Made by a program: the position numbers and the translations under genes. Below the pieces are notes generated by a model. It made no database searches and had not been told where the DNA came from. It saw only the letters and a program-made list of their open reading frames with translations. This document shows, piece by piece, positions 2,325 through 36,243 of a stretch of DNA of 64,000 nt. Within the stretch, counting starts at the first letter, position 1. Each line of letters starts with the position of its first letter. Origin of the DNA: Legionella bononiensis (lineage in GTDB: Bacteria > Pseudomonadota > Gammaproteobacteria > Legionellales > Legionellaceae); contig NZ_JADOBG010000002.1 of the NCBI RefSeq assembly GCF_016786215.1, positions 124,001 to 188,000 on the forward strand, given 5' to 3'.

Positions 2325-2449
2325 TATCACAATAATGAGCCACATCAATAATTAAAAAATAAGATATGCTTGTTCAATACAATAAAAAATTTATTATTTC
2401 ATGTTAAGATGTGCAGCTTTATAAATAAATTTACCACATAGTGACCATT

Positions 2450-3862: not shown

Positions 3863-3880
3863 TTTTAGAAGATATAACTC

Positions 3881-4318: not shown

Positions 4319-4324
4319 AAAGAG

Positions 4325-4389: not shown

Positions 4390-4438
4390 TCCAGAGTTGA
4401 ATTTTTATTGGAACTAATCATAAAAATTCATAAATAAA

Positions 4439-5236: not shown

Positions 5237-5296
5237 GAAGCATTCCTTGAAACTTAAGTTACTTTCGTGCGGTATGGTAATCAAAGTTGGCGAAAG

Positions 5297-7789: not shown

Positions 7790-7790
7790 T

Positions 7791-8648
7791 TTATGACTCC
7801 AGATTGACTCTATCCCCGATTAGATTAGGAGATGAAATTACCAAAAAAGAAACCAAATTTCCGGAACTATTTTTCACTTTATGGGTTATCCCTGCTTTAA
7901 TACTTATTCCTTCCTGTTCCTGTAACACCTGTTCATAGTCTTCAAACTCAATAACCAATTGTCCTTGCAAACAATAAAAAAATTGTTCTGTTTCCTGATG
8001 ATAATGTTTTACCTCAAAACTGCCTGAGGGCATCGTTTCATAAAGAACGTTAAACTGACCATCATTTTTTAACCACCATGCATCACAATTTTGTCCCCAC
8101 TTAAAATGAGGCGCATTGCTTATTGAGACAACCTCTTCTCTCACTACAGATTCTGATATAGACGATTTTAGATTTTGACTTAAGTCCGAGACTGAATCAT
8201 CATTTAAGAGCCCGATGTCTCTTGTTCCCTGAAATTCTTTACGCAAAAAATAAAAAATAGAGTTTTTCTGAAACCCATGCCGCTCAAACTCAAGTTCGAA
8301 ACCTAATTTTTTATAAAATTCTATTGCTTCCCAATCCATAGTATTAACTGTTGCAAAAGCACAGCCTTTCTCATTACCGTACTTCAATGCCTCTTGCATA
8401 AGCTTTGTTCCCCATCCTTGATGCCTGATGGACTCACTCACCCAAAGATTATCGACATGAAGTCCTCCATAGAGTGTTCCACCACTACAACCACCCACAA
8501 TGCTATTGTCTGCATCACGAATAAAGCATGCAAAGAAATCTAAGGACTCGAAGCCCCTTGCTTGTTTGGCGTACGCCTTAATCCCATTCGTTAATATTTG
8601 AACATCATCAGGGTTTGGATTTTCTAAAAACGATAATTTTAAAGTCAT
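7791..8648 (-). CDS. GNAT-cupin fusion protein
   Basis: 285 residues. Residues 1-135 are a GNAT (HQGWGTKLMQEALKYG, then FYKKLGFELEF). Residues 195-285 are a cupin barrel with HYHQETEQFFYCLQGQL and a later KAGITHKV motif, which supply the usual metal ligands. A cupin next to a GNAT could bind or sense the same small molecule. It starts in an ATGA overlap with the upstream cupin gene, so the two are coupled. Confidence 0.78.
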   Translation of the reverse strand: MTLKLSFLENPNPDDVQILTNGIKAYAKQARGFESLDFFACFIRDADNSIVGGCSGGTLYGGLHVDNLWVSESIRHQGWGTKLMQEALKYGNEKGCAFATVNTMDWEAIEFYKKLGFELEFERHGFQKNSIFYFLRKEFQGTRDIGLLNDDSVSDLSQNLKSSISESVVREEVVSISNAPHFKWGQNCDAWWLKNDGQFNVLYETMPSGSFEVKHYHQETEQFFYCLQGQLVIEFEDYEQVLQEQEGISIKAGITHKVKNSSGNLVSFLVISSPNLIGDRVNLES

Positions 8649-9040
8649 TTAATGTATTCCACTGTAGGAGGCCAGGCACCATGCTCCACATAACTTGCCT
8701 CATCACTGCCTGACCAAGGTGGCATAGTAACGCAAATAAACACCAAATCTGCTGCATCACTTCGATATTGAAAATGTGTTCCCAAGGGAATATCGATGCT
8801 GACTCCAGCAGTTAAAGGGGTAATGCTCTCTTCATCGTTCAACTTACGCCAAATTGCACCCTCACCAGAAAGGACATGCCAAAATTCAGATACAGTTTTA
8901 TGACGAACTGCTTTGGAAATTGTGCCTGCCTTCAAAGTACAGTGAGCCATTCCACCTAAATGATTATTCATCAGCAATCGAACTTCAGCTCCTGCTGGTG
9001 AAGTGTGTTGATATTCTTTGGGTATTTCTTGTGTATTCAT
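8645..9040 (-). CDS. Small cupin protein
   Basis: 131 residues forming one cupin domain: HCTLKAGTISKAVRHKTVSEFWHVLSGEG is spread over the first barrel motif and IPLGTHFQYRS over the second. The usual His pair appears partly replaced, so metal binding is uncertain. The ATG at 9040 has AGAGG upstream. It is coupled by ATGA to the GNAT-cupin fusion. Its role may be binding or isomerising a small molecule; I cannot say which. Confidence 0.72.
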   Translation of the reverse strand: MNTQEIPKEYQHTSPAGAEVRLLMNNHLGGMAHCTLKAGTISKAVRHKTVSEFWHVLSGEGAIWRKLNDEESITPLTAGVSIDIPLGTHFQYRSDAADLVFICVTMPPWSGSDEASYVEHGAWPPTVEYIK

Positions 9041-9099
9041 TTATGCCTCTATTAAACCAATGCTCTCATCAGTTTTATCAAGTGGTTATTTCTTCATTT

Positions 9100-9993
9100 T
9101 TAATTTTGAATCGTAACGCAAGTAGTATCTGCATCTAAAGTAACTACTTTGCCAATTGGAAGAATGCAATTTTGCTTACCATGTCCATAGGAAAACTCTT
9201 TAATACAAGGGACTTTTAATTTAGAAGCCCATTCATTGATTACATCTTCTACCGTACCATCGCTCTGATTCGACTTCTTACTTTTACATTGTTCAAATGT
9301 ACCAAAAATAACGCCGGAAACTTCATCAAAAATTCCTGCTAAATCTAATTGTGAGAACATGCCATCAATATTATAGGGCTCGACGCCAACATCTTCTACC
9401 AACAAAATACATCCTTTAAAAGTAGGCATGTAAGGCGTGCCCATTAAATTAGTCATAAGGGTTAAATTGCCACCAAGAAGAGTACCTCGGCTAACGCCTC
9501 CATGAACCTTTATTCCTTTGCGAATTGTGTACTCTTGGCCTAACAAAGAAGAAAATAATGTTTTTTTAACTTGGGTACTTAAATGAATGGTCAAAGTAAA
9601 CCCTGTATAACTTACTAAGCCAGTGTTTTTAAATAGGCCTAATTGCAACGCTGTAGTATCACTAAACCCGAATAATGGTTTTGGGTTTTTCTTAATCAAT
9701 TCATAATCTAAGAAAGGTAAAAGTCGTTGCGAACCTTGTCCTCCTCGGGTTGCAATAATTGCTTTCACTTCTGAGTCTATAAAGAAATCCATCACATCTT
9801 GTGCACGGTCACGGTCTTTACCAGCTAAAAATCGTTCTGATGCAAACATATGCTTTGCATACTTTACATTAAATCCATTCGACTTTAATAAATGAACTCC
9901 TACTTCTATTGCTTTTTCCGTAATAGGACTCGAGGGAGAAATAAGCCCCACGATATCTCCTCTTTGTAGTGGTTCTGGACATAGAATATTCAT
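9100..9993 (-). CDS. S66-family LD-carboxypeptidase / MccF-like peptidase
   Basis: 297 residues, normal length for family S66. The probable triad is Ser111 (GFSDTTAL), Glu200 (LVEDVG) and His271 (SYGHGKQ), spaced as in LdcA and MccF. LdcA recycles murein tetrapeptides in the cytoplasm; MccF cleaves the amide of microcin C and so gives immunity. No signal peptide is present, so it acts inside the cell. Its place among acetyltransferases and tRNA-editing genes favours the immunity-type role, but that is inference. The start has GAGG upstream. Confidence 0.83.
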   Translation of the reverse strand: MNILCPEPLQRGDIVGLISPSSPITEKAIEVGVHLLKSNGFNVKYAKHMFASERFLAGKDRDRAQDVMDFFIDSEVKAIIATRGGQGSQRLLPFLDYELIKKNPKPLFGFSDTTALQLGLFKNTGLVSYTGFTLTIHLSTQVKKTLFSSLLGQEYTIRKGIKVHGGVSRGTLLGGNLTLMTNLMGTPYMPTFKGCILLVEDVGVEPYNIDGMFSQLDLAGIFDEVSGVIFGTFEQCKSKKSNQSDGTVEDVINEWASKLKVPCIKEFSYGHGKQNCILPIGKVVTLDADTTCVTIQN

Positions 9994-23576: not shown

Positions 23577-24483
23577 AAGAAGCCTCCTTTTCTTCTATTT
23601 TGTTGTATACATTATGAAATACCCTGTCATATACATAAGAACACCATTTTTCACTCTCAATTCTAGCTAGATGTGTTTGCGGTAGATTAAATACACAATT
23701 AGGTTTTGCATCTTCTACTACCAATTCTGAATAAATAGTTCTTTGGGCGATCGGAGGTAACAACCATTCTTCTGATTTCTCTATCGAACGCAAGTCATTA
23801 AGGAACTTAGTATGTACTGCTGTTTTACGAACTTGGTTAGGTAAAATTCCCGCTATTTTGATTGTGTCATCTTTTACTCTTCTAAGTTGCTCTTGTGAAA
23901 TTGCTTGGATCATACCTATGGTTCCATTAATACCATATTGTTCTAGTTCGGTTGGCAATAGTCCATGAGTTGCTGCTCGCAACCCTGCCATTGTTAGTGG
24001 GCCAAACTGTGGATTCGTATCAATAATAACAAATTGGTAATCACTGTGGGTTGACAGCATTTCGGTAAATTCTTTAAGACGATTTATAACTTTTTCTTTT
24101 ACATCAACTTTTAGAACACGTTGTGCATCTTCCAGTAATGAAGCAAAAGAAGGGAAACAATGTAAATTGTCAACCCATGTTGGGTATGGATAAATAGATT
24201 TACCTATGAATATATCTGCAATACTACTAACACCATCCCAATGTGGATCATCTTCTGGTAAGTTATTAGGATCCCACTCTGGATGCGCTTTAGGCATATA
24301 ACCCGTTGGGTGAGCAGGATCTCTGGTAGTTGGAATTAGGCTAGATGAAGAATTACCTTGTGGGTCTAAATCAATAAATGCCCCTTTCATGTTTTTACAT
24401 TTAGCTAGATATTGTGCAAGAGTGAGTGCAATAGTTGATTTGCCAATCCCTCCTTTGTTTCCGGCTGTTGTAATTACTTTCAT
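23569..24483 (-). CDS. parA: ParA-family partition ATPase
   Basis: 304 residues. The deviant Walker A KGGIGKST at residues 9-16 and the later FVIIDTNPQFGPLT identify the ParA/MinD family, which moves plasmids over the nucleoid. The N terminus is short, so this is a type Ib-like ParA without an obvious DNA-binding domain, although its length exceeds most Ib members. The ribosome site AAGGGGGA precedes the start. It heads the parA-parB-x-rep-parB transcript. Confidence 0.9.
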   Translation of the reverse strand: MKVITTAGNKGGIGKSTIALTLAQYLAKCKNMKGAFIDLDPQGNSSSSLIPTTRDPAHPTGYMPKAHPEWDPNNLPEDDPHWDGVSSIADIFIGKSIYPYPTWVDNLHCFPSFASLLEDAQRVLKVDVKEKVINRLKEFTEMLSTHSDYQFVIIDTNPQFGPLTMAGLRAATHGLLPTELEQYGINGTIGMIQAISQEQLRRVKDDTIKIAGILPNQVRKTAVHTKFLNDLRSIEKSEEWLLPPIAQRTIYSELVVEDAKPNCVFNLPQTHLARIESEKWCSYVYDRVFHNVYNKIEEKEASYG

Positions 24484-24509
24484 CCATCCCCCTTCTTACA
24501 ATAAGGTGT

Positions 24510-24574
24510 TTTGTACTATTTGTTATTAGGCTATCTTCTTTGAAATGAATTTGCAAGCGGTAATTTGTACTATT
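24510..24574. repeat. Direct repeat TTTGTACTATT upstream of parA
   Basis: The 11-mer TTTGTACTATT occurs at 24510-24520 and 24564-24574, 54 bases apart, just upstream of parA. The spacing is close to five helical turns, which suits an operator pair or a partition site. No binding protein is shown. Confidence 0.45.
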
Positions 24575-24684
24575 CTTTTAAATTTATAAAAAAGAAAAAT
24601 ATATATCTTTTTTCTTCTATTCATAGATTCCTTATATAAAACACAGTAACTAATTGATTTTAAATGATTTATGAAAGGATAATT

Positions 24685-24826
24685 GTGTATCTATTTGGGA
24701 GTGATAGTGTAGGTTTATGAGTTTTTCTGTGTAGTAATATGGGGTTCAAAAGGTTTTTTAATCATATGTGTAGCTTTATGGGGTATTGTGGTGTAGTTAT
24801 ATGATAATGGTGTAGATTTATGGGAG
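24685..24826. repeat. Iteron-like array, probable replication origin
   Basis: Six copies of a motif close to GTGTAGNTTTATGGG start at 24685, 24707, 24729, 24768, 24791 and 24810, mostly 19-23 bases apart and on one helical face. The first and fifth are degenerate. A DnaA-box-like TTATCCATA lies at 24839-24847. Rep_3 plasmids use such iterons as origin and copy control. Origin function is inferred from the repeats and the operon next to it. Confidence 0.65.
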
Positions 24827-25368
24827 AGATTTTAACTTTTATCCATAATCTACCTAATGCAATGAATGCTAGATTTTAGGCGGCTGGATCTTTTGCTCTA
24901 GAAACTTTGAAAATTCGGAGTGGCAAGTGGTATTGCGAATCTCAGTAAAAGATTATCCTGATGTTTGTTTGGGTATACTTATCTTTTGTATTAAATCTCT
25001 ACCCTGCAATAAGATATGTTTAACTGGATAGTACCACACTATACTTTTTGCGTTTGCTCGAATAAGTCGCACATTGATTAACTTTGATAATAGAATAAAT
25101 TCGGGAATAGATATAAACGAATGTTATTTCCATATTCTAGATTTCATTTCTAGTTGTAACAGAATAACTTCATTTGCGATTAAATAATCATACCAATTGC
25201 TACTTTGTAGCGGTGTTAGTTTGTGATTAATTCTTGCTAAGTATCTTGGTTATTCAGCTATATATGCCCGTAATAAGGGTCCACGTATTGAGTTAAATCT
25301 ATTATAAGTAACCATCCAAAAACATTTATAACAACTCCCGATATGCGTTAAACTCAAATTGAATAGGG
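24827..25368. other. AT-rich intergenic region, no gene seen
   Basis: About 540 bases between the iterons and the IS630-like transposase. I see the DnaA-like box at its left end and no convincing coding frame. AT-rich stretches here could be the unwinding region of the origin. Confidence 0.5.
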
Positions 25369-26394
25369 TCAAGCAAATTTATTTTCATTGTAATGCCAGA
25401 TAAATTTTCTAATACGAGCAATCAATTGCTCAATACAAGTAAATCCATTCGCACCATATATTTTCCTCTTCAACCACTTCCAAAATAGCTCAATTGGATT
25501 ATATTCAGGTGAATATGGTGGTAAAAAAAATAACTCCACCCATTCGTGTTTTTTCACAAATTTTGAAACCTTTTTGCTGCGATGAATAGAGCCATTATCA
25601 ATAATCATCACTATCTTTTTGTTGGGTTTAGCTTTTATGTAATTGATGTAGAAATTGAATAAATATCTTAGAGTTCCTCTTTCGGCTTGTTTCCAATAAA
25701 AAGCTTGTGAGCTTAAACTCAGAGCACCAAATAATGTTTTACTTTCTCTCATTTTGTTGGTGTGGACGGGTTTTTTTTCGCCACGTTTAAACCAACCTCT
25801 CTCTACATAGGGTTCGTTTGAGAAGTGAGACTCATCTGCAAATAATATTTCTATTTCATGCTCTAACTTTTGTTTACTTAGCGATGCAACCATTTTTTCA
25901 ATATAAGCTGCTTTATCTTCTTTACTCGGCGCATTCAGTGGGGGCTTTTTAGAATAGCGTTTATATACCCATCCATGCTCATGAAGTGCTCGCTTTACTG
26001 TTGTCGCACTCACAGAGCCAACCGTTTTAGTCAATTGATCTAATTGAAGATTAATTTGCCATCCAGACTGTTGGTAACCGTACTCCTTGGGCGATACACT
26101 TAGCAATTGGTTGAGCTCTTCCTTGACTTTTTCTCTCAATTGATTCGGTCGACCGCTTGAATTTTTATCTATTAATCCTGAAATGCCAAAATGTAAATAA
26201 CGTTTTATCCAACATCTCACCGTGTGTGGATTACGACTCAATTGCGCTGAGATTTCACCTATACTTTTGCCTGATGAGGACAGTAAAACATAATACGCTC
26301 GCTCCCCTATATTTTTTCCCGTTCGCGAGCCTCTTAGTTTTAGAAGTGTTTGTTTTTGCTCTTGCGTGATAATCACTTTTATCGCTTTACCCAT
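25369..26394 (-). CDS. IS630-family transposase, apparently intact
   Basis: 341 residues. An N-terminal helix-turn-helix pair (IGEISAQLSRNPHTVRCWIK) is followed by the DDE catalytic domain: Asp in FADESHFS, Asp in IIDNGSIHRSK and Glu in YSPEYNPIELFWKWLK. Length is typical. I could not fix terminal inverted repeats with confidence: the flanks near 25341 and 26436 show only a partial match. It lies between the iteron cluster and a stray iteron copy, so it may have split the origin region. Confidence 0.88.
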   Translation of the reverse strand: MGKAIKVIITQEQKQTLLKLRGSRTGKNIGERAYYVLLSSSGKSIGEISAQLSRNPHTVRCWIKRYLHFGISGLIDKNSSGRPNQLREKVKEELNQLLSVSPKEYGYQQSGWQINLQLDQLTKTVGSVSATTVKRALHEHGWVYKRYSKKPPLNAPSKEDKAAYIEKMVASLSKQKLEHEIEILFADESHFSNEPYVERGWFKRGEKKPVHTNKMRESKTLFGALSLSSQAFYWKQAERGTLRYLFNFYINYIKAKPNKKIVMIIDNGSIHRSKKVSKFVKKHEWVELFFLPPYSPEYNPIELFWKWLKRKIYGANGFTCIEQLIARIRKFIWHYNENKFA

Positions 26395-26962
26395 CCTTAA
26401 AACTCAGCTACTCCTTAAAAGTTGATGCGGACATTACACTATCTTTATGTTTTATAAAAGATTATGGATGGTTGCTTATTTGTCTTTGTCCATAGCGAAG
26501 ATTATATTTTTTTAACGAATATTGATCGCTGGTGTTGTTGGAGCTGAGATTAGCTTCTCTACTTGAATGGATAAATTAGTTTTTATAACTATGTATCTAT
26601 TATCAAGTTAAATAGGTTTATCGCTTAACATTTTTCAATAATCCATTTAACGATAAGATCTTTTCTCTCGCAGTATTTATTTAACTCATTTATAGATCTA
26701 AGAAATTTATTCCTGATTTAAGCAAAGCTTGTTGTTTTTTAAATATTAAAGTAATCAACCTATACTAAATGTGTGACGAATTAATTATCTACAAATATTA
26801 ATTAATAGGGTTGCATTCTAATTTTATGATAATCTTAATTATCTTTAGGATGATGTTTTTTGTTTTTGGACTGTTGAATTTTTTATTAAATTCGATCCTG
26901 TCTCTGTTTCAACAAGCGCTTTTAATTTTACGAGACTTCTACTAGGAATTATCGGTTTCATA

Positions 26963-26983
26963 AATTGTCCCCGGGGGATAATT
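26963..26983. promoter_or_regulatory. 21-bp near-perfect palindrome
   Basis: The sequence AATT-G-TCCCC-G-GGGGA-T-AATT is symmetric around 26973 with one mismatched pair. A GC core inside very AT-rich DNA is striking and looks like a protein-binding site. It is near the stray iteron and upstream of the receiver-domain gene. Confidence 0.45.
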
Positions 26984-27053
26984 TTAGTAACTTATTGATT
27001 ATAAACAATAAAAATAAACAATATTCTGTAATTCACATGGGGGTTATGGAATG

Positions 27054-27068
27054 GTGTAGATTTATGAG
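27054..27068 (+). repeat. Isolated iteron-like copy
   Basis: GTGTAGATTTATGAG matches the array motif at 24685-24826 and is almost identical to the copy at 24810. It lies 2.2 kb away, on the far side of the IS630-like element. Confidence 0.5.
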
Positions 27069-27375
27069 GCGGCAAATTTTAAAGCAAATTATGGTGATTA
27101 CAAATTAACAAACGTTTGAGAGAAAAAAAATTAACAGGAAAAGTATTCAAACTTAATCGCAAAATATAAACAACTACAACTTAAGTGACAAAATATAAAA
27201 TTGAGGAGGAAAAAATTTGAATAATCATTTATTATACAAAGCGACATCCATGTTAGTTTAATTTTCCTTAACAGCAATGATAATGGAACAATACAGTATA
27301 AATTAGGAGTCTGAAATATTGGCGATTTATCATGGGTGTGATGCAATTAAAGCTGTAACGTAGAGGAATTACTAT

Positions 27376-28368
27376 ATGACTATTATTGATGCAAGACCTA
27401 CCTGTTTTTATCATCCGATAAAAGTCATTTTTTTAGATGATAACCGTGCATTTTTGGATGCGTTAGATTTAGAATTTGGCGAAAAATTTAATATACTGAC
27501 ACTTACAAGCTCAGATATGGCTTTTCATCTGATTGATAATGATAGTCAGGATGTTACCCAATCAATTTTCAAATTGATGAATGATGTTAATCTAGATACT
27601 ACTAATGATCGGGTTATTGGCTTTGATGTTAGTAAAATGTTAAACCTGATTTATGATAAAGCAAGGTTTGAGCATGCCCCACTGTTAGTAGTGGATTATC
27701 AAATGCCCGTTATTAATGGAATTGAATTTTGCAAAAAAATTAAAGAGAAAAAAATCTTTAAAATTATGCTAACGGCAGAAGCAGATAAAGATACAGCGAT
27801 CAGCGCGTTCAATAACGGTTTAATTGATAAATTTATACTCAAGACAAGCGAAAATCTATATCCAGAAATTACATTAGCTGTCGATGACCTAACTCAGCGC
27901 TATTTTAGAGAGTTAACAAAGAATATAGTTAATGCGTATGAAAACTCCATTAGTGATTTATTTGGTAATGAATTATATCAACAATTATTTGCCAGTGTTT
28001 TACTGCAAGCACAGGCTGTTGAATATTATCTAGTTGATAATTCAGGGAGTGTTTTATTTCTTGATAAAGATGCCAAACCTACATGGCTTATCATTAGACA
28101 TGTAAAAGAGCTATCTGATCAATTAGATTTAATGCAGGGATATGAACTACCCAAACAGACTATAGCCGCTGTTGCAAAAAAAGAGAAAATATTATTCTTG
28201 TTATCAGAAAAAGAATATAAAAAACCAATAAGTGAGTGGATTAACTATTTATTTGATGCGAAAAAGCTAGATAACAATTACTACTACAGTATTACCAAAG
28301 ATCATTTAACTGATTCTATAAATTGGGGAAGGGTGGTTTCATATTCCTCATATCTAGCAGAGAGATAA
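27376..28368 (+). CDS. Receiver-domain response regulator with unknown output domain
   Basis: 330 residues. A CheY-like receiver spans about 13-170: acidic pair Asp21/Asp22 (FLDDNRAF), phospho-acceptor Asp107 (VVDYQMPVINGIEF), Thr133 (MLTAEAD) and Lys156 (FILKTSE). An insert of about 45 residues lies between the second and third strands. Residues 180-330 do not match a DNA-binding or enzymatic output I know. The size and arrangement recall LqsR of the Legionella quorum-sensing system, but I cannot verify this. It converges with the DHp-like gene, ten bases apart, and has the ribosome site AGAGGAA. Confidence 0.8.
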   Translation: MTIIDARPTCFYHPIKVIFLDDNRAFLDALDLEFGEKFNILTLTSSDMAFHLIDNDSQDVTQSIFKLMNDVNLDTTNDRVIGFDVSKMLNLIYDKARFEHAPLLVVDYQMPVINGIEFCKKIKEKKIFKIMLTAEADKDTAISAFNNGLIDKFILKTSENLYPEITLAVDDLTQRYFRELTKNIVNAYENSISDLFGNELYQQLFASVLLQAQAVEYYLVDNSGSVLFLDKDAKPTWLIIRHVKELSDQLDLMQGYELPKQTIAAVAKKEKILFLLSEKEYKKPISEWINYLFDAKKLDNNYYYSITKDHLTDSINWGRVVSYSSYLAER

Positions 28369-28378
28369 TTTGGCAGAA

Positions 28379-28606
28379 TTATTCATTCAAAAGAGATAGA
28401 AAATAATTTTCAATCTTTACAGTCTGCTCACGAATAGTGCTCATGGAATATAAAAATTTTTCCATCTGTTTTTGATTAATATCGCTGGTCTCCATTGACT
28501 GTGAAATTGTATTAATGAAACTCGAAGCCGATTTTGTCATGCTGTTGATGATAACAATTGAGTTTAAAAAATCGTGTTTTAATTTATCTTTATCCGTTGA
28601 GTTCAT
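28379..28606 (-). CDS. Stand-alone DHp-like (histidine phosphotransfer) small protein
   Basis: 75 residues, predicted as two helices. Helix 1 holds KLKHDFLNSIVIINSM, an H-box-like motif with candidate phospho-His11; helix 2 runs from about 45 to 72. There is no ATPase domain. This is the size of a bare dimerisation/histidine-phosphotransfer hairpin, as in Spo0B-type proteins. It starts in an ATGA overlap with the hybrid kinase stop, so the two are coupled. The phosphotransfer role is inference. Confidence 0.6.
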   Translation of the reverse strand: MNSTDKDKLKHDFLNSIVIINSMTKSASSFINTISQSMETSDINQKQMEKFLYSMSTIREQTVKIENYFLSLLNE

Positions 28607-30720
28607 GTTAAATTCCCGTGTGCAAATCGAAAAGGTGGTTCTTTACCAACAATGGATTTAATCCATGGCATTTGGCTAAATCGATCTCTTGAATGGCCAG
28701 TGGCAAGATGAACATCAATAAAGCCCTTATCAAAAAGGAGTTTTGCACAATCCTCGCCTCTAACATTGTTTCCTAGATCTGAATCAATATAAATAAGAGT
28801 ATTCTCACCATAATTATTTATTTCATTTATGAACTCATCAAATGAAGAATAAGTTGAAATACATTGTCCAGCCTCTTCAGCAGCAAAGATCCAAGTCATT
28901 CGCATCATTTCATCGTCATCAATAAAAACAACCGTATTTATATGTTCTTTCTTTGGAGTTTCAATAATTTTAATATAGGGTACATAAGATTTTGGTATGA
29001 TTTTTACACCAATATTTTCGCACCGATTTCGTATAGCAATATCTTCAAAGCAACTGGTAACTAAAATAGCTTTGCCATTTAAATTAAGCTCTTCAATCAC
29101 ATCTAAACCATTTTTAACATCAGCGAGCAGCTCATAATCTACTAAATATAATACTGGGATTTCTGGATCAACTTTATACTGTAATAAGTCGATCGCGTTA
29201 TAAAAATGAAACATTTTAACGTGTGAAATATTTGAAAACCGTTCATTCCATGCATCATGGATGGATATATCGTCATCTAATACGACAATATTAGTACCAT
29301 GCCTAATATTCATTGAATCACAGAACCAGCTAGGAGGGGTAGACCGAATTAGAGTGATCTGAATTTTTGTTCCAACTTTTTCTTCGGAGTGAATATGCAT
29401 TGAACCATTGATTTGCTCTAAATATTGTTTAGCATAAGATAAGCCAAAACCAGCACCAGTTTTCTTATTAAAGCTAAATCCTTGCTCCGTAACCTTTGGC
29501 AAGATATCGCGAGGAATGCCGCAGCCATTATCTTCTATAATAATTTCGACATGGGTAGCATTGCAGGTTAGAGAGATAATAATAGAGCCATTAGAATTAA
29601 CTGCTTCAATACCATTATTAATGAGATTGGATAGAACACGCTTAAAAGAATCAGGGTGTATGTTAGAAAAACAATTATATGAGTAGTCCGACCCAAGTAA
29701 GTTGATTTGAATGTTGGTTCCGTAATATTCATATCTTTTTTCTGCAACGATATTATCTAAAACAACAAATATTAATTCTGGAGAATTATTCATATTTATT
29801 TCGCTACTCTTACAGTCAAGCAAATTATTTTTTGATTGTATGAGTAGGTTATTAGCAATATCATTGATTCTTTTAGCTGCATTTCTGATCATAATGCGTT
29901 TATTTTCAGGAATTGATGTTACATCAGCTACTGCGGTATTTATTGCCGCTAATGGTGATCGAATATCGTGAGCAACAAGCTCAGCAATATTTTTTCTTAC
30001 CTCGTAATAGGCTTTTTCTTTCTGTAAATTGATTATTTGTCGATGTTCATCAATAAATTTATTAGCAATTTGTCTGTATTCATTAATTTCAACTTTTGCA
30101 AAATCAACAGCATTATTAGTTTGATGTGATGAAATGAAATCGAGCAAGTATTCGGTATTGTTTGCTATTTTCTTTCTCATGGAAAGGAATAAAAATAAGA
30201 AATTAAAAAGAAATATTCCAAGTACGATCAATAAAATTAACAAAAGACCATAGGATACTGGCAAAGTATAGATGGAATTATATTGCTTACTTGCAACCAC
30301 CGAGCCCAATATCTTTTCATCATTTTTAATTAATGTTATACCAGAAATTTGCCCATTATCTTTTTTGCATAGAAGGTAATTGCTTTTGCTGTTTTCTTCG
30401 CAAGTACCTACATCTTCTATTTTATTTTTTAAAGGAACAAATTTTATTGAGTCTAGTTTGCGTTCATTACCTAAATTGTATAGTACTAAATCAAGAGCAT
30501 CCTTATTATTAAGCAGCTGATACCTACCAATTTCATCAGTGGTAAATGAGTCATTAATAATTAAATTTCTGGAAAAAACACTCATCTGATTATGAAAATA
30601 ATCTTTTGCAAGCATGAGTATAAATCCAAAAATAATAAATTGGATTAGAGCAGAATATGCCATTTTCTTGATAAAAATTGCTTTGATTGAAGAGCTTTTA
30701 TTTTTCATAAGCATATCCAT
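28603..30720 (-). CDS. Hybrid sensor histidine kinase with two receiver domains
   Basis: 705 residues. TM segments at about 20-38 and 155-180 enclose a periplasmic domain of about 115 residues. HisKA has His251 (LVAHDIRSPLAAI). HATPase_c has NLINNGIEAV (N-box), DNGCGIP and GAGFGL. Receiver 1 (about 477-590) has Asp528 and Lys577; receiver 2 (about 596-700) has DDD at 601-603, Asp646 and Lys693. The start overlaps the periplasmic-protein gene by 23 bases; ATGs at 30714 and 30708 are alternatives. The neighbour binding protein may present the ligand to the periplasmic domain. Confidence 0.9.
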   Translation of the reverse strand: MDMLMKNKSSSIKAIFIKKMAYSALIQFIIFGFILMLAKDYFHNQMSVFSRNLIINDSFTTDEIGRYQLLNNKDALDLVLYNLGNERKLDSIKFVPLKNKIEDVGTCEENSKSNYLLCKKDNGQISGITLIKNDEKILGSVVASKQYNSIYTLPVSYGLLLILLIVLGIFLFNFLFLFLSMRKKIANNTEYLLDFISSHQTNNAVDFAKVEINEYRQIANKFIDEHRQIINLQKEKAYYEVRKNIAELVAHDIRSPLAAINTAVADVTSIPENKRIMIRNAAKRINDIANNLLIQSKNNLLDCKSSEINMNNSPELIFVVLDNIVAEKRYEYYGTNIQINLLGSDYSYNCFSNIHPDSFKRVLSNLINNGIEAVNSNGSIIISLTCNATHVEIIIEDNGCGIPRDILPKVTEQGFSFNKKTGAGFGLSYAKQYLEQINGSMHIHSEEKVGTKIQITLIRSTPPSWFCDSMNIRHGTNIVVLDDDISIHDAWNERFSNISHVKMFHFYNAIDLLQYKVDPEIPVLYLVDYELLADVKNGLDVIEELNLNGKAILVTSCFEDIAIRNRCENIGVKIIPKSYVPYIKIIETPKKEHINTVVFIDDDEMMRMTWIFAAEEAGQCISTYSSFDEFINEINNYGENTLIYIDSDLGNNVRGEDCAKLLFDKGFIDVHLATGHSRDRFSQMPWIKSIVGKEPPFRFAHGNLT

Positions 30721-31789
30721 TGCTATTAACTGATAAAATAACGTAATTGGTCGATCGATAAAATTGACCGTTTTTTAAATAAGCTCCAGTAATTCCTGTA
30801 TAATTAGTATTTAATATGCTATTTGTATTGACGATACCGGTTCTATCCAATGCTTTTAAAATGATCTTCATTGAATCATAAGTGTATACTGCCAATACAG
30901 TGGGTTTTTCATGGTATTTTTGAACATAAATATTTTCAAATCTGGTTAAAGCATCATAGGGCTGTATAAAATCCAAATTACGGATAAAATGAGAACGAAT
31001 GACTTTATCATTTAGTCGCATAAAAAATGTTTGACTGACTGAAGAACCAAAGTTTTCTGTGCCAATAAAAACAGTACAATGGTTATTCATAATATTGGCA
31101 ATTTTTGCTGATGCTATTGCACCTGACAATAAAAAAACGTATTGATATTTTCGCTCATTCAAAAATTTCTTCAGTTTTCCCTCTATATCGCTGTCATTTT
31201 CTAGAAAATCGAATGTAGAATATTGTATGTGTTCTTTTTTTAGAGTGCTGGAGTACACTTCCTTATACTTTAGCATCTCATCACGGTTAATTTCCGTTAT
31301 AAGTAACACGTTGTTTATATTTTTATAACGATCTTGTAAGTAGCTCATCATTTTATCAGCTTGGTAATTATAGCTGGGCATAAAGATAAAAATATTCTTG
31401 GGTAATTGATCAGAGTTAGTGGTGCTAGCGTAAGAAGTAAAAATAGGTATGGTGTCATTTTTCTGTTCTTTTACAGCTAATAACAAGTCGGAAAGATATT
31501 CAAACCCAATAATTGCGGAGCAGGAGTCATTTACCATTTGATTATAAATATGCATTGGCTCCAATGGTCTGTTATTATAAAAATAACTCTTGATTTCAAC
31601 TTTATTAGCAGGATCATTTTCTTCTTTGGCAAGATATGCCGCATTTAAAAAAGACTGGCCATATGATTTTAAATTTTCAACAACTCTTCCGGTTAAACAT
31701 ATTTTAATTTTAGATTGTGCGTAAACAACAGTGGATATCAGTATAGAAAATAATAATATGATGGCCTTAGAGCTACTTAATAAATTCAT
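30698..31789 (-). CDS. Periplasmic ligand-binding protein (type I fold)
   Basis: 363 residues with a signal peptide (hydrophobic residues 8-24, VVYA-Q). The rest resembles Leu/Ile/Val-binding-type periplasmic proteins: IKICLTGRVVENLKSYGQSF, AAYLAKEEND, SAIIGFEYLSDLLLAV and YTYDSMKIILKALDRTG. No ABC permease or ATPase gene is near, so it is likely a sensory partner of the kinase whose gene it overlaps, like LuxP or other sensor-linked binding proteins. The ligand is unknown. Confidence 0.78.
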   Translation of the reverse strand: MNLLSSSKAIILLFSILISTVVYAQSKIKICLTGRVVENLKSYGQSFLNAAYLAKEENDPANKVEIKSYFYNNRPLEPMHIYNQMVNDSCSAIIGFEYLSDLLLAVKEQKNDTIPIFTSYASTTNSDQLPKNIFIFMPSYNYQADKMMSYLQDRYKNINNVLLITEINRDEMLKYKEVYSSTLKKEHIQYSTFDFLENDSDIEGKLKKFLNERKYQYVFLLSGAIASAKIANIMNNHCTVFIGTENFGSSVSQTFFMRLNDKVIRSHFIRNLDFIQPYDALTRFENIYVQKYHEKPTVLAVYTYDSMKIILKALDRTGIVNTNSILNTNYTGITGAYLKNGQFYRSTNYVILSVNSNGYAYEK

Positions 31790-32666
31790 TTAAAAGCTCA
31801 CTAAAACGATCATTCTCTTCTAGATGTGGGTAGTGGGAAGATTTATTGAAAGTTATAATTTCATGATTGTTTGACAATACTATTTGGTGTCCGTTAATGA
31901 CAAAATCATGAAAACCATTTATCCATAATTTGCGGATTTTAAGCTCATCAATATTAACAGAAAAATTCGCCTCTTTTGAATAAAGATCTTTTCTTACACT
32001 GATAAACGTGTTTGTATTTAATGGTAAATTGATATGCTTTTGAATATCTTGGACCAAATTATAATATTCTAAATTGGCCCAATACAGATAAGGCCTGTCT
32101 TTATTTTCTTGGAAAACTGGAGTTAATTGTTCTGATAGTTCCCAGATTTTATTAAGATCAAGATTATTAATTTCTTTTAATATTTTGTTATATAGGTCTA
32201 AATTACTTTTTTTCAAATAGGATAGGTCAAGCATTAAATTATTCAAACGAGGCGTTAGTATTGATTTAGCGGTAGAAACAAAAACGCCAGGGATGGTAGA
32301 CTCATAACTTTTGTAGTAATCAAAAAGAAGTTTTGCACCATAACTATGTCCAATCAATGCATTGATGTTAAGATTAAAATGGTCAGCAAGGTATAGAATT
32401 ATTTTTTGCAAATCAATTATATTATCTTGCTGTAGTACTAGCTTTTTAATTTTATTAGATTTACCGCAATTTCGTTGATCATATAGAATAATATTGCACT
32501 GCAGAGGATTAAATAAATTATGATGCTCAATAAGATACTCTATGGTTCCACAATTAAGGCCAGGACCACCATGAATGAAAAGAGCATAAGGTAGGCTGGA
32601 GCTTTTAGTAAATCTGACTATATAAAATTCTTGATGTGGCAAAATATCTTTTTTGTAAGCTTTCAT
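31773..32666 (-). CDS. Alpha/beta hydrolase, proline-iminopeptidase-like
   Basis: 297 residues without a signal peptide. The oxyanion motif is HGGPG (32-36), then YDQRNCGKS, the nucleophile is Ser108 (GHSYGA) and the base is His278 or His281 near the C terminus. The HGGPG/DQR pair marks the proline-iminopeptidase/lipase-like branch. It overlaps the binding-protein gene by 17 bases and the repressor stop by one base (TAATG). It might make, modify or destroy the signal detected by the module; inferred. Confidence 0.8.
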   Translation of the reverse strand: MKAYKKDILPHQEFYIVRFTKSSSLPYALFIHGGPGLNCGTIEYLIEHHNLFNPLQCNIILYDQRNCGKSNKIKKLVLQQDNIIDLQKIILYLADHFNLNINALIGHSYGAKLLFDYYKSYESTIPGVFVSTAKSILTPRLNNLMLDLSYLKKSNLDLYNKILKEINNLDLNKIWELSEQLTPVFQENKDRPYLYWANLEYYNLVQDIQKHINLPLNTNTFISVRKDLYSKEANFSVNIDELKIRKLWINGFHDFVINGHQIVLSNNHEIITFNKSSHYPHLEENDRFSELLNEFIK

Positions 32667-33313
32667 TAATTACTTTCTCGAAATATTCTGCGGATCCATA
32701 CAATTGGGGCAGCAAATTTAATAGCGGTATTTTTTATTTCTTTTTTCACTAATGTGGTTTTTTCATTTAAACAAACTAAGTCATAGCGAGCTGGTTCTTC
32801 TCCATGCTTTAAGATCCTAACGAATACTTCATCATTGTCCGCAATAATAATACAATCTTTGCCAATGGCACTCTCAATATTGTTGACTATTATACCGCCA
32901 ACATAATTGCCAGGGTATAAGAAAGGTATCATGCCATCATCTTTTATGACAGTGTCAATAGAGTTTTGTAGTTCTCTGAATAGTAGTAATTCTTTAGCTA
33001 TGTGGCTTTCGTCACCCTCTTGGATATCTAAATCTTTTGTGATTCTTGTGGCATTTTTACCAATGCCATGCATTAACCATGACTCTGTGCAATAAATATT
33101 TAACTCTTTAGATCGCTTAACGATTTTTACAGCCCCCTGTTGGGATAAACCCCCTCCCCAAGCCAATTCCCATCCCTTTAATGATTGAGCAGTAAAATTA
33201 GAATCGCGACAAAAATCTTCTCGTGTAAAAGACAGAAGATGCTCGCGTATGAATCTTATTCTTTTGCCCCGAGACTCGGGGGATGAAACATTGTCTATTA
33301 CAGGATTGCTCAT
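32666..33313 (-). CDS. XRE repressor with catalytically dead S24-like domain
   Basis: 215 residues. The N-terminal half is a Cro/C1-like DNA-binding region (about 15-90, ending ESWLMHGIGKN as in phage repressors). The C-terminal half is a LexA/CI-type domain, but the Ser of the DSM motif is Gly127 (DDGMIPFLYPG) and the usual Lys is Arg166 (VFVRILK). It cannot self-cleave by the standard mechanism. It faces lvrA across 236 bases holding two TACCnnnnnGGTA-type palindromes and shares an operon with the signalling genes. It holds the place of the phage-type repressor beside Legionella lvr loci. Confidence 0.78.
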   Translation of the reverse strand: MSNPVIDNVSSPESRGKRIRFIREHLLSFTREDFCRDSNFTAQSLKGWELAWGGGLSQQGAVKIVKRSKELNIYCTESWLMHGIGKNATRITKDLDIQEGDESHIAKELLLFRELQNSIDTVIKDDGMIPFLYPGNYVGGIIVNNIESAIGKDCIIIADNDEVFVRILKHGEEPARYDLVCLNEKTTLVKKEIKNTAIKFAAPIVWIRRIFRESN

Positions 33314-33353
33314 ATTTAAATAATTCAGTCAGATACATGTTTATTCTATGATA

Positions 33354-33366
33354 TACCAAAATGGTT
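33354..33366. promoter_or_regulatory. Operator-like inverted repeat near repressor
   Basis: TACCAAAATGGTT: arms ACC/GGT with a 5-base spacer. It lies 41 bases upstream of the repressor start. The arms and spacer match the larger palindrome at 33461. Confidence 0.45.
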
Positions 33367-33460
33367 AATAAATCTTCGTAAGAATTTACCAAAAAAATAG
33401 TTTAAAAAACATCAAAATACAATGCGTTATAGCATTCTAGGTGTGATAAAGCATTATAAA

Positions 33461-33477
33461 TTTACCTTTATGGTAAA
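33461..33477. promoter_or_regulatory. 17-bp operator palindrome in the divergent region
   Basis: TTTACC-TTTAT-GGTAAA is a perfect six-base inverted repeat with a five-base spacer, placed between the repressor and lvrA. Half sites TTTACC occur nearby (about 33385 and 33493). It is a good candidate operator for the XRE repressor. Confidence 0.55.
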
Positions 33478-33484
33478 AATATCA

Positions 33485-33513
33485 TTGTAATTTTTACCAT
33501 AAACTGATACTCT
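33485..33513 (+). promoter_or_regulatory. Possible lvrA promoter
   Basis: TTGTAA (33485-33490) and TACTCT (33508-33513) are 17 bases apart, about 37 bases ahead of the lvrA start. The match to consensus is modest. A half operator TTTTACC lies in the spacer, so a bound repressor would block it. Confidence 0.35.
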
Positions 33514-33549
33514 TATCTAAATAAATTATGTAAATAAAAGGACTTGTTG

Positions 33550-34527
33550 ATGAAGTTGGATGTTGAGTTATACATTAATGCTAGGAAACAAATAGAAAAA
33601 AAGTTTCAATTATTGCCCTATGGTCCTAGATTAATTATTTATGAGCTATTAAATCTTGCAAATCCTCTTACAGGCATTGTATCTGATATTAGTTATCGTG
33701 ATCTATCAAAAGCCTTGGAGATTAAATCCGCTCCAGGTCGAATCAACAGTGGTATTCCATCCAAGCAAACCATCAGAAATTTCATAAAGTCTATAGAACA
33801 TGAGTGTGGTGAATACTTTAAAGTTATAACTGAAGGGCAAAATTTAAAATTTATGTTCCCTGAGGCTCCTCAGATCTATAATCAATTGATTAGAAAGAAA
33901 GAAGTTAACACAGATCTTAATTCACCTAAATCCCTTATGGATTCTGATATAGAAGGAAAGTTGGAGGTACAATCTAACATAGAAGTTAACAGAGAAGCTA
34001 ACACACTCAAAAGTCCTGCAAAGAATATTAAAATATTTAATATAACTAACTCAAACAAACAAACTCAAACTGCGAATAATGATTTTTGTTGCAGCAAAAA
34101 ACAAATTCATGACGACTTTTATCCAAACCCAAAAACCATCGAAATGGCATTTTCCATGGGACTCACCAAAGTCACCGATTTAAAAGAAATTCAGGCATTC
34201 ATAAAACATAACAAAAAACACAACACTCAATGGGCTGATTTTAATCCAGTATTCATTAACTGGTTGGAAAGAGATTCCCAATATACCCAAAACAAACAAC
34301 AAAAGGCACAAGGACAATTAAGGAGTCATCACAATGAGCGTGGTACCAATCAAAGCACTCTTAACCAAACAGCACTTGAACGAGTCAGCGAACATCATGG
34401 CATTTCAATCGACTCACTCTGGGACACCCAGGACAGTGAACTCAACTCCGGTGCATTTATCGAAGGAACACTTGTCCAGCCTCTGGATGAAGCTGACCGC
34501 AATATACGGGCAACTTTTTATCAGTAA
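33550..34527 (+). CDS. lvrA: LvrA-like protein (winged-helix and DnaT-like domains)
   Basis: 325 residues from ATG 33550 (AAGGA upstream). The N-terminal 110 residues look like a winged-helix replication/regulatory domain (YGPRLIIYELLNLA, SKQTIRNFIKSIE). After a polar linker, residues about 195-250 (FYPNPKTIEMAFSMGLTKVT, then WADFNPVFINWLERD) resemble the DnaT C-terminal domain. Gene order with a lambda-P-like protein and a CsrA paralogue is the Legionella lvr set upstream of conjugation genes, which is the basis for the symbol. Confidence 0.7.
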   Translation: MKLDVELYINARKQIEKKFQLLPYGPRLIIYELLNLANPLTGIVSDISYRDLSKALEIKSAPGRINSGIPSKQTIRNFIKSIEHECGEYFKVITEGQNLKFMFPEAPQIYNQLIRKKEVNTDLNSPKSLMDSDIEGKLEVQSNIEVNREANTLKSPAKNIKIFNITNSNKQTQTANNDFCCSKKQIHDDFYPNPKTIEMAFSMGLTKVTDLKEIQAFIKHNKKHNTQWADFNPVFINWLERDSQYTQNKQQKAQGQLRSHHNERGTNQSTLNQTALERVSEHHGISIDSLWDTQDSELNSGAFIEGTLVQPLDEADRNIRATFYQ

Positions 34528-35008
34528 GCATGGAGTGAAAGATACGGGAGTTTGGTTTGCCGCACTTAAAGATTTAACTCCAAAAGCATTAGACAGTGGT
34601 GTGGAACGATTAATGGCTTTGAATAAAGGCGACAAGTTTTGTGAATTTCCACCCAATTGCCTGCAGTTTCGAGCTTTGTGTCTTGGCTTTTATAGTGATT
34701 TGCGACTGCCTTCTGCTGCCCAGGCGCATAGGGAGGTATTAAACAGCGCTTATTCAACGAACCCAAACTGGAGTCATGCAGTGGTTAAATTTACTGCTAA
34801 AAGACTGGGGCTTAAATTTCTGGAAATTGATAATGAAGGCCATTCTTTTGCAGTATTTAAAGAAGCCTATGAACAGGTATGTCATTTAATGAGACAAGGA
34901 CACCAGATCCCGGAAATTAAAGAGAAGGTCTTGTGCGCTTTGCCTCAATCAAAGGACATTGCAACAACACACCTTGCGAAAATTCGCCAGTTATTGGGAG
35001 TTGCATGA
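34334..35008 (+). CDS. lvrB: LvrB-like protein (phage replication protein P-like)
   Basis: 224 residues. WFAALKDLTPKALDSGVERL and KFCEFPPNCLQFRALC match replication-protein-P-like proteins, which load helicase. The start has an excellent ribosome site (AAGGAG, 9 bases) placed inside lvrA, so the two genes overlap out of frame by 194 bases. Second gene of the lvr set. Confidence 0.72.
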   Translation: MSVVPIKALLTKQHLNESANIMAFQSTHSGTPRTVNSTPVHLSKEHLSSLWMKLTAIYGQLFISKHGVKDTGVWFAALKDLTPKALDSGVERLMALNKGDKFCEFPPNCLQFRALCLGFYSDLRLPSAAQAHREVLNSAYSTNPNWSHAVVKFTAKRLGLKFLEIDNEGHSFAVFKEAYEQVCHLMRQGHQIPEIKEKVLCALPQSKDIATTHLAKIRQLLGVA

Positions 35009-35208
35009 TGAAACAAATTCCATGTTTAAAACTGTTTACAAAGGAAGAGCTGTACTGTCTTTTAAACGCCTGCTCCGAGTCATTGGCTCTGGCCTATCAG
35101 GAAATCCCTGAATGCGATTTCTGGCACATTGCGATGGAGGCACGATTGGCATGCGAAGCGCTTCGATTCGAAATTGATTCACAAAAAAAAGAATATTCAA
35201 TTCACTAA
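35005..35208 (+). CDS. Small uncharacterised protein in the lvr operon
   Basis: About 67 residues beginning at ATG 35005 or 35008, in an ATGA overlap with lvrB. It is mostly helical in character (FTKEELYCLLNACSESLALA) with four Cys residues. No family recognised. It is 19 bases ahead of the CsrA-like gene and in the same transcript. Confidence 0.6.
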   Translation: MMKQIPCLKLFTKEELYCLLNACSESLALAYQEIPECDFWHIAMEARLACEALRFEIDSQKKEYSIH

Positions 35209-35227
35209 CCAATAAAAGGAACACAGC

Positions 35228-35452
35228 ATGTTAATACTTACACGTAGAATAGGCGAAACCGTACTAATCAATGATGACATTTATATCACCGTGCTCGGTG
35301 TTAAAGGGAATCAAGTCCGCTTAGGGTTCGATGCACCACAAGATGTAATTATTCATCGTCAGGAAATACATCAAAAAATTAAAAATGAACAATCTCTGTT
35401 TTTAAATAAGCCTGGTAAGTGGAAGGAAGAGCGTGGCGTACAGACTCATTAA
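35228..35452 (+). CDS. lvrC: CsrA paralogue (LvrC/CsrT type)
   Basis: 74 residues with a complete CsrA core: [14 protein letters not shown], the [16 protein letters not shown] strands and [10 protein letters not shown]. CsrA proteins bind GGA motifs near ribosome sites and control translation. Paralogues of this kind accompany Legionella conjugative elements and are thought to govern element genes. The C-terminal tail is longer than in standard CsrA (61 residues) and divergent. Its own leader contains AAAGGAAC. Confidence 0.88.
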
Positions 35453-35490
35453 CCAATCAAATCATCATACTAACGAGTTAAGGGAATAAA

Positions 35491-36243
35491 ATGAAACCAT
35501 GCATTAACCAGATACAAAAGGCAATTACCACTTTAGCTTTAACTGGATCTTTTGCCCTGTTGGTGAGCTGTGCTGCTACATCAACAGTAATTGAACATCG
35601 TAACTTAGAAACAGATACAAAACTCAGCCAAACGATTTTTCTTGATCCTGTGGCTCAAAGTCAAAAAACGATTTACATCACAATTAAGAATACTTCTCAA
35701 GAGTCATTATCCATTGATAAGTCACTAAAGCAGGCATTAGAAGAACATGGCTATAAAGTGGTTGGAAATCCATCCAAAGCCCATTACCTGCTACAAGCCA
35801 ATATTTTAAAGGTTGGAAAAATGAGCGTGTCTGCAAGTCAGTCTGCGCTAGGTGGCGGGTATGGCAGTGCATTGGCGGGGGCTGCAACAGGAACTGCACT
35901 GGGTGCATTAAGCGGTCATTCAAGCACCATGATTGGTGCAGGTATTGGTGGAGGAATTATTGGTTTGGCTGCAGATTCTCTAGTCAAGGCAGTGAATTAC
36001 ACGATGATTACCGATGTACAAATTTCTGAGCGCGTTGGAAAGGGTGCCGTTCATGAACAGTTTAATTCCAACCTTCAAAATGGCACTGCATCTGGAACCA
36101 CCCAGACATTGAGCAAACACAGTGATTACCAACGCTATAGAACGCGGGTGGTATCCAATGCCGATAAAGTCAATCTGAGTTTTGCAGAGGCAAGACCAGC
36201 ACTGGAACAAGGTCTGGTAAAAACATTAGCGGGCATTTTTTGA
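35491..36243 (+). CDS. traT: TraT surface-exclusion lipoprotein
   Basis: 250 residues. A lipoprotein signal ends at LLVSC (Cys27). The body has the glycine-rich TraT segments (GGGYGSALAGAATGTALGAL and GAGIGGGIIGLAADSLV) and the C-terminal YQRYRTRVVS. TraT sits in the outer membrane and blocks entry of related plasmids. In F it lies after traG/traS; here it leads the locus. Confidence 0.9.
   Translation: MKPCINQIQKAITTLALTGSFALLVSCAATSTVIEHRNLETDTKLSQTIFLDPVAQSQKTIYITIKNTSQESLSIDKSLKQALEEHGYKVVGNPSKAHYLLQANILKVGKMSVSASQSALGGGYGSALAGAATGTALGALSGHSSTMIGAGIGGGIIGLAADSLVKAVNYTMITDVQISERVGKGAVHEQFNSNLQNGTASGTTQTLSKHSDYQRYRTRVVSNADKVNLSFAEARPALEQGLVKTLAGIF

Follow-up and report, generated by a model that had tools for sequence, protein, structure and literature searches.

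Introduction

Conjugative elements of Legionella carry lvrRABC modules, in which a repressor gene is divergent from lvrA and from the lvrB, csrA-like, and transfer genes that follow it (PMC3864950). A module of this arrangement lies in the stretch of Legionella bononiensis DNA analyzed here, referred to as the window (64,000 nucleotides of contig NZ_JADOBG010000002.1, positions 124,001 to 188,000). Unlike the described modules, its repressor gene heads an operon encoding a sensor relay, on which the gene of a response regulator related to LqsR converges; six distant lvrR-like loci (L043–L048) have no matching regulator within the stretches examined. The repressor, relay, and regulator genes are together called the cassette.

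In the Lqs system (LqsA, LqsS/LqsT, LqsR), LqsR is phosphorylated on an aspartate by LqsS or LqsT and then dimerizes (PMC4669118), lqsR is under CsrA control (PMC5338858), and the LqsR output domain resembles the diguanylate cyclase fold, with no cyclase activity detected (PMC10653808). Regulators of the LqsR family are associated with quorum sensing (PMC10653808, PMC4669118), among them PhcX of Ralstonia and JqsR of Janthinobacterium (PMC10653808; PMC3566124), for which the accessible text describes no link with lvrR on conjugative elements. The cassette shares with the Lqs system a regulator that is LqsR-type over its full length and keeps the acceptor residues. It has, instead of the Lqs-system proteins LqsA, LqsS, and HdeD, none of which had a match in the window, a hybrid kinase, a small histidine protein, a binding protein, a hydrolase, and a repressor, and it adjoins conjugation genes.

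The Vibrio LuxP/LuxQ–LuxU–LuxO pathway shares with the cassette the logic of a binding protein, a two-helix hybrid kinase, a separate histidine protein, and a receiver protein. The window differs in having a binding protein of the Peripla_BP_6 rather than the LuxP type, two fused receivers, and an LqsR-type rather than an NtrC-type output, and neither a LuxU-type HPt protein nor a LuxO-type NtrC output was found in its cassette. ChpT and Spo0B are dimeric DHp-type phosphotransferases that likewise place a separate histidine protein between receiver and regulator. By analogy, the small cassette protein would be expected to dimerize into a four-helix bundle; unlike ChpT and Spo0B, however, it has only 75 residues, no ATPase-like second domain, and no detectable sequence relation to them. 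The Gram-positive PrgX/cCF10 and ICEBs1 Rap-Phr systems also give a mobile element its own signal input near the transfer repressor, whereas the cassette is Gram-negative and appears to use a periplasmic receptor and a phosphorelay.

Results and Discussion

The Cassette Regulator Is Related to LqsR over Its Full Length

An earlier sequence-only reading of the window had described the regulator as a receiver of unknown output. A phmmer search against the PDB corrects this: residues 8–329 match residues 27–352 of entry 6sy9 (E = 2.4e-39; next PDB entry, 1.4e-5), and because the match spans both the receiver and the C-terminal output domain, the protein belongs to the LqsR family by homology. The PDB label of 6sy9 is only "Response regulator"; the entry is taken to be LqsR on the basis of its closeness, judged by eye, to the chromosomal regulator in the genome of the window. 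The latter lies in a locus (L034:1262–7621) that reads as a canonical chromosomal lqsS-hdeD-lqsR-lqsA cluster. The gene order agrees with that in PMC4669118, and an LqsR structure, the second ground for identifying 6sy9, is cited in PMC11237717 and PMC10653808.

Residues Asp21, Asp22, Asp107, Thr133, and Lys156 of the regulator are invariant in 11 aligned rows, chromosomal LqsR among them, and its structure model has a mean pLDDT (predicted local distance difference test score) of 75.7. In a tree of 40 regulators, those of cassette types A and B (defined below) form one clade of 23 rows, those of type C together with L080 and L081 a second of 5, and the chromosomal LqsR group a third of 9, each with support of 100/99; the deeper joins are weak and carry a long-branch warning. 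Judged from sequence homology and tree position, the window regulator is a full-length LqsR relative in a clade of its own.

Among 18 same-genus genomes with the cassette, 5 (G000, G013, G017, G029, and G043) also have a chromosomal LqsR-type match at 1e-20 and 13 have none. Two plasmids of L. longbeachae, a species reported to lack LqsS and LqsR (PMC2824747), carry the cassette as well, so it need not depend on a host Lqs system. On one 157-kb contig (G001:C53) there are two cassette regulators, which share 87% and 92% identity with that of the window. A(N)GGA motifs of the CsrA type upstream of the regulator gene were considered and set aside, as they are not conserved over 13 loci except near the start codon.

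The Cassette Recurs across the Legionellales

The same set of genes is found in the same order on circular, conjugative-typed plasmids of L. sainthelensi and L. anisa, with 92–97% protein identity. It is also present on the two L. longbeachae plasmids, with the kinase and the receiver gene split in one examined, and more distant versions occur in other genera. This recurrence indicates that the arrangement is not due to chance. The joint-neighborhood search advised by the sequence-only reading thus finds a conserved unit beside lvrR/lvrA and tra, and the scattering of the genes in relatives that would have spoken against one is not seen: the set recurs across the Legionellales even where regulator identity is as low as 38% and where the genes have been rearranged.

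Regulator searches gave matches in 37 of 45 same-genus genomes at 1e-3, many of them weak and confined to the receiver, and in 86 of 143 genomes of the order at 1e-20, chromosomal LqsR included. Thirty-five sources, nearly all picked for their regulator matches, were examined gene by gene. A small protein accompanies the regulator in 19 of the 21 sources with a type A or B regulator, a kinase or its remnant in 18, and a repressor in 15 (weak in L069 and L070). Missing are the small protein in L068 and L070, the kinase in L068, L070, and L073, and the repressor in L037, L066, L068, L071, L073, and L084, where most contigs are short or cut. The parts stay together in L040, L074, L076, and L077, where their order is scrambled. 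A carrier scan, which rests on two peptide patterns and misses distant relatives (113 stretches, 33 relatives, 32 loci), covered 16 named species (L. bozemanae, L. anisa, L. parisiensis, L. erythra, and 12 more) plus metagenome-assembled genomes; wherever a title is more specific than the phylum, the host belongs to the Legionellales.

Three types of cassette can be distinguished. Type A (the window, L036, L038, L041, L065, L067, L074, and L076) has the hydrolase, the binding protein, and a kinase with two predicted membrane helices, to which L076 adds a third, weak membrane segment. Type B (L012, L040, L071, L072, L075, and L077) has a kinase with 6–10 predicted membrane segments and neither hydrolase nor binding protein; a GNAT enzyme is encoded in L012, L040, L072, L075, and L077 (the L071 contig begins too close to tell) and a cyclase-family enzyme in L075. 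Type C (L042, L078, and L087) combines an S9 dipeptidyl-peptidase-like enzyme, a peptide-type binding protein (SBP_bac_5), and a two-helix, one-receiver kinase, as named by Pfam in L042 and assigned by similarity to it in L078 and L087; a repressor was not found in L087, and L078 adjoins lvrA-, lvrB-, csrA-, and tra-like genes.

This signaling cassette of Legionellales elements is real, conserved, and modular, and it sets an LqsR-type output next to a repressor of the LvrR type. The six-part set named by the sequence-only reading stands as a conserved unit in which the small protein goes with the regulator, but its hydrolase and binding protein prove detachable. In the literature searched, which excludes most subscription papers, we found no account of a conjugative element encoding an LqsR-type regulator. 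LqsR-type regulators, previously known as chromosomal quorum-sensing outputs with unclear action, now appear as the output of mobile cassettes.

Repressor, Small Protein, and Regulator Appear to Be Inherited Together

Comparison of the window with L067 separates the cassette from the transfer genes. On the transfer side, identity is 99% for TraT, 97% for LvrB, and 95% for the CsrA-like protein, whereas LvrA is at 65% and values in the cassette are 64% for the repressor, 70% for the hydrolase, 68% for the binding protein, and 67% for the kinase core, the small protein (38%) and the regulator (44%) being the most divergent parts. DNA identity drops from 94–98% to 52–80% between 34.4 and 33.8 kb, inside lvrA. 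L036 and G043 differ in the opposite sense, with high identity in the cassette (repressor 95%, hydrolase 94%, small protein 96%, regulator 89%) and low identity in LvrB and LvrA (both 46%). Judging from these breaks, the cassette is exchanged as a block, with a breakpoint inside lvrA.

Exchange also reaches into the cassette. L012 and L038 are alike in repressor (92%), REC2 (76%), small protein (66%), and regulator (67%); the L012 sensor is another than that of L038, and its kinase core is nearer that of the window (73 versus 67%). Across 13 loci, distances correlate most tightly between repressor and regulator (r = 0.94; partial 0.70; 0 of 1000 permutations), although the kinase genes separate the two in most; the small protein and regulator follow (0.91), then the kinase core and regulator (0.74). 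Small-protein distances keep partial correlations of 0.40 with the regulator, 0.34 with REC2, and 0.03 with the kinase core. We read the repressor, small protein, and regulator as a probable co-inherited output set with exchangeable inputs. Block recombination without protein contact is a possible source of the co-inheritance.

The Small Protein Is a Candidate Phosphotransferase

Six residues of the 75-residue protein (His11, Asn15, Lys25, Ser26, Phe51, and Met55) are invariant in 18 aligned rows, some of them near-copies, and its structure model is a two-helix hairpin (helices 3–37 and 45–73; pLDDT 91). An invariant histidine within such a hairpin is what a stand-alone DHp-type phosphotransferase would display. 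A separate search for the small protein is less biased than the gene-by-gene reading. It gave 31 matches in 29 of 143 genomes, all at most 7 kb from a regulator located at 1e-20 and 27 of them within about 150 bp; the others lie at 6.5 kb (G003), 3.5 kb (G029), 3.2 kb (G119), and 0.7 kb (one copy in G136). The small protein is tied to the LqsR-type regulator.

Pfam and NCBIfam gave no match to the protein, including Pfam Hpt, which matched nine times elsewhere in the genome and nowhere on the contig of the window. Profile comparison with the kinase family gave no useful alignment, and Foldseek with the model returned 232 matches, none at E ≤ 0.001, in which a few kinase chains stand amid unrelated helical hairpins. 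In L080 and L088, a protein of 93 or 99 residues beside the regulator has a sub-threshold HisKA match (4.4e-4 and 7.3e-4) and an HFIRTPLASI box. Conservation and model make the small protein a candidate stand-alone DHp-type phosphotransferase.

It might instead serve as a kinase inhibitor or adaptor, with the kinase receivers or His251 phosphorylating the regulator directly, as LqsS does. Such a role would fit the lack of an HPt or significant HisKA match, the phosphorylation of LqsR by LqsS and LqsT without such a protein (PMC4669118), and the type C cassettes L042, L078, and L087, in which the kinase has one receiver and no small protein was found. We consider it unlikely, given that His11 is invariant in every row, that two fused receivers call for an intermediate histidine, that L080 and L088 have analogous HisKA-like proteins, and that small-protein distances track the regulator and REC2 and not the kinase core. 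In L076 (6309–7184), a single open frame covers both the small protein and an enzyme of the cyclase family (PF04199), through fusion or a lost stop codon.

The Repressor Faces a Conserved Dyad

Self-cleaving repressors of the S24/LexA type typically have a Ser-Lys catalytic pair. The cassette repressor, a weak Pfam match to Peptidase_S24 (0.012), has Gly at the Ser place in 8 of 9 aligned rows and Arg at the Lys place in all 9. The window repressor lacks the pair and is probably unable to cleave itself.

Between lvrR and lvrA lies a perfect inverted repeat; the window holds two repeats of such kind, and 40 shuffles none. An exact copy of its core, GGTWAAA-N13-TTTWACC, is present in 12 of the 17 regions examined on the repressor side (the window, L009, L036, L065, L067, L038, L041, L012, L049, L075, L074, and L076); L072 has one mismatch, and L077 has one mismatch and a different gap. 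The window contains a single copy of the dyad (none in 100 window shuffles), and the 4.2-Mb genome has it at one place. A half-site search of the window gave 15 matches against 8.4 expected, so only the lvrR–lvrA dyad is counted as a site. By eye, its right half-site falls between sequences that could serve as the –35 and –10 boxes of lvrA. The dyad is a candidate operator between the two genes.

Hydrolase, Binding Protein, and Sensor Resemble a Detachable Input Module

At 1e-30, 24 of 143 genomes have the binding protein and all 24 also have the hydrolase, which occurs without the binding protein in 2 further genomes. Both accompany the two-helix kinases of the eight type A loci and none of the six multi-pass kinases. 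In L126 and L128 they form a trio with a receiver-less kinase of 457 or 498 residues, with no repressor or LqsR-type regulator, and in L127 the trio adjoins a weakly similar repressor and a receiver protein. Because they are absent from the multi-pass cassettes and occur in stand-alone trios, the hydrolase and binding protein are placed outside the core; with the two-helix sensor they are, by this distribution, a detachable input module.

Using a family profile, the binding protein matches 4gnr (7.5e-7), and its nearest relatives are branched-chain amino-acid binding proteins. The hydrolase reaches 52 bits in its best NCBIfam match, below the 167.65 required for a curated proline iminopeptidase; its closest solved structures are proline iminopeptidases (8e-7). 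The cassette might therefore sense a nutrient or host-cell metabolite, an amino acid or peptide, which the hydrolase would degrade for reset. These affinities and the trios standing apart from any repressor or LqsR-type regulator in L126 and L128 make this quite possible, if somewhat short of an even chance, since no catabolic hydrolase or transporter operon was seen and an LqsR-type output would be unusual for nutrient sensing.

A quorum-type system, in which carriers make, export, and re-sense the ligand so that transfer follows carrier or recipient density, is rather unlikely. The "quorum-like" guess of the sequence-only reading gains from the association of LqsR-family regulators with quorum sensing (PMC10653808, PMC4669118) and stands as plausible only. 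In its favor, other cassettes pair a peptidase-like enzyme with a peptide-type binding protein, L088 has a one-strand array (792–9565) of repressor, HisKA-like 99-residue protein, regulator pieces, ATP-grasp ligase, MFS transporter, alpha/beta hydrolase, binding protein, and kinase, and dapdiamide/bacilysin-like synthesis genes are divergent from the L042 cassette. Against it, no signal synthase or exporter was seen in the cassette of the window or in most others, and between two cassettes the small protein (38%) and regulator (44%) are the most divergent parts and not the sensor (70%), unlike in pherotype systems.

The L088 array looks like a signal-making and signal-sensing set. In L042 (929–7226 and 7574–15128), the type C cassette is divergent from genes for an ATP-grasp ligase, a cupin, two SDRs, a prephenate dehydratase-like protein, a DAHP synthase, and an EamA transporter, which may be the target of the cassette or its signal source. 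The contig of the window also carries a YcaO/TfuA/ThiF/ATP-grasp cluster (G000:C12, ~192.8–201.6 kb; L123), and on plasmid pLLO-F1157CHC (L125) a similar YcaO cluster stands directly before tra genes 96% identical to those of the window, in the place where the lvr cassette would be expected. A YcaO/TfuA/ATP-grasp cluster was rejected as the signal source: the seven Legionella plasmids with this YcaO gene include none of the five cassette plasmids.

A Model for Signal-Controlled Transfer

We tentatively favor, at a little under an even chance, a signal-controlled phosphorelay attached to the lvrR–lvrABC transfer switch. Its basis at the sequence level is a set of co-inherited parts with intact acceptor residues, among them a regulator identified as LqsR-type, together with an input module that can be detached and the conserved dyad. 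LuxP docks on LuxQ, and in the same manner the periplasmic protein would bind a small ligand, probably amino-acid- or peptide-like, and dock on the periplasmic domain of the kinase; the cytoplasmic hydrolase would make or destroy this ligand. Phosphate would pass from His251 to Asp528/Asp646, to His11 of the small protein, and on to Asp107 of the regulator. Having no recognized DNA-binding domain, the regulator would act through contact with another protein, the simplest candidate being the LvrR-like repressor. The repressor would sit on the dyad and shut lvrA; as it is apparently unable to cleave itself, release would have to come from outside, and contact with the regulator would release (or lock) lvrABC-tra. 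We infer that the signal-driven relay would lift LvrR repression of transfer.

Several observations weigh against this model. The L076 repressor, outside the nine-row alignment, keeps Ser at the S24 place, still with Arg. The dyad is absent from L040 and from both type C regions, which carry another palindrome, and a reversed control pattern also occurs at one place in the genome. The distance correlations ignore phylogeny, block exchange alone could yield them, and there is a correlation between regulator and kinase core too (partial 0.44; 1 of 1000 permutations). Direct profile and fold searches with the small protein found nothing, so that its DHp assignment depends on His11, the hairpin model, and the analogous proteins with sub-threshold HisKA matches in two sister loci. 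Finally, the reported output fold of LqsR showed no detected cyclase activity (PMC10653808).

The relay could also control host traits such as competence, virulence, and motility, as LqsR does, and merely travel beside lvrR without controlling transfer. LqsR and PhcX are broad regulators (PMC4669118, PMC10653808), a plasmid could supply one to the 13 of 18 cassette genomes without a chromosomal match, and the distant loci L043–L048 have no such regulator within the stretches examined. This is nevertheless improbable: repressor and regulator are the tightest co-inherited pair despite exchanged genes between them, the overlapping operon itself starts with the repressor gene, and type C cassettes join repressor and regulator as well, L078 beside lvrA, lvrB, and tra genes.

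If signal-controlled transfer is correct, it offers a concrete route by which Legionella plasmids could time conjugation by an outside signal without an SOS trigger; plasmids may decide on transfer by listening to a small-molecule signal through a swappable relay. With the regulator next to one repressor and one operator-like dyad, the search for the mode of action of the LqsR family narrows to one candidate partner. A wider proposal, speculative and unlikely as it stands, is that these are modular, peptide-like quorum-sensing cassettes of Gram-negative conjugative elements. They would have swappable inputs (a binding protein with a peptidase-like enzyme, or a multi-pass sensor with an acyltransferase) and one conserved output, the stand-alone DHp protein and LqsR-type regulator as anti-repressor on a non-self-cleaving LvrR, their "language" being changed by whole-cassette swaps at lvrA.

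Locus and Setting

The six open reading frames of the sequence-only reading, with its phosphorelay residues in kinase, small protein, and receiver, are all in place (Table 1), and gene positions bear out that the repressor faces lvrA and the tra locus. The five minus-strand genes from repressor to small protein overlap successively by 1, 17, 23, and 4 bases, and the receiver gene is convergent with them. Divergent from the repressor gene are lvrA, lvrB, and the csrA-like gene, preceding an F-type tra region, which is the lvrRABC arrangement. In Pfam, the kinase matches HATPase_c (1.6e-20) and, weakly, HisKA (0.038), the binding protein Peripla_BP_6 (9.7e-8), the hydrolase Abhydrolase_1 (9.9e-11), and the regulator Response_reg (6.3e-10). 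Rfam gave no match up to E = 1 over window positions 24000–36000.

Table 1. Positions of cassette features and adjoining genes in the window
Feature	Position	Strand	Remarks
LqsR-type response regulator, 330 residues	27376..28368	+	Acceptor Asp107; based on phmmer match to 6sy9
75-residue helical hairpin, candidate stand-alone DHp-type phosphotransferase	28379..28606	-	His11; based on conservation and model
Hybrid histidine kinase	28603..30720	-	Two membrane helices, ~120 periplasmic residues, His251, receivers with Asp528 and Asp646
Periplasmic binding protein, LivJ-like	30698..31789	-	Peripla_BP_6; signal peptide judged by eye
Alpha/beta hydrolase, nearest to proline iminopeptidases	31773..32666	-	Ser108, Asp254, His278 invariant in 10 rows
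LvrR-like repressor	32666..33313	-	Gly127 and Arg166 replace Ser and Lys of self-cleaving repressors
Inverted repeat, candidate operator between lvrR and lvrA	33467..33503	strandless	14-bp perfect arms, 9-bp spacer
lvrA-like gene	33550..34527	+	Named from position and PMC3864950; block-exchange breakpoint inside, ~34.0–34.4 kb
lvrB-like gene	34334..35008	+	Named from position
csrA-like gene, lvrC position	35228..35452	+	Relative annotated csrA

The window is plasmid-type DNA, judging from the plasmids of its relatives. That the system is plasmid-borne, as first proposed, holds for relatives on conjugative-typed plasmids and is unestablished for this strain, in which the contig measures 425 kb and has two tRNA genes near 330 kb; given these, the copy in the window may be integrated or lie on a large plasmid. 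A DDE-type insertion-sequence transposase that is not there in the closest plasmids lies at 25369–26394, between the regulator gene and parA.

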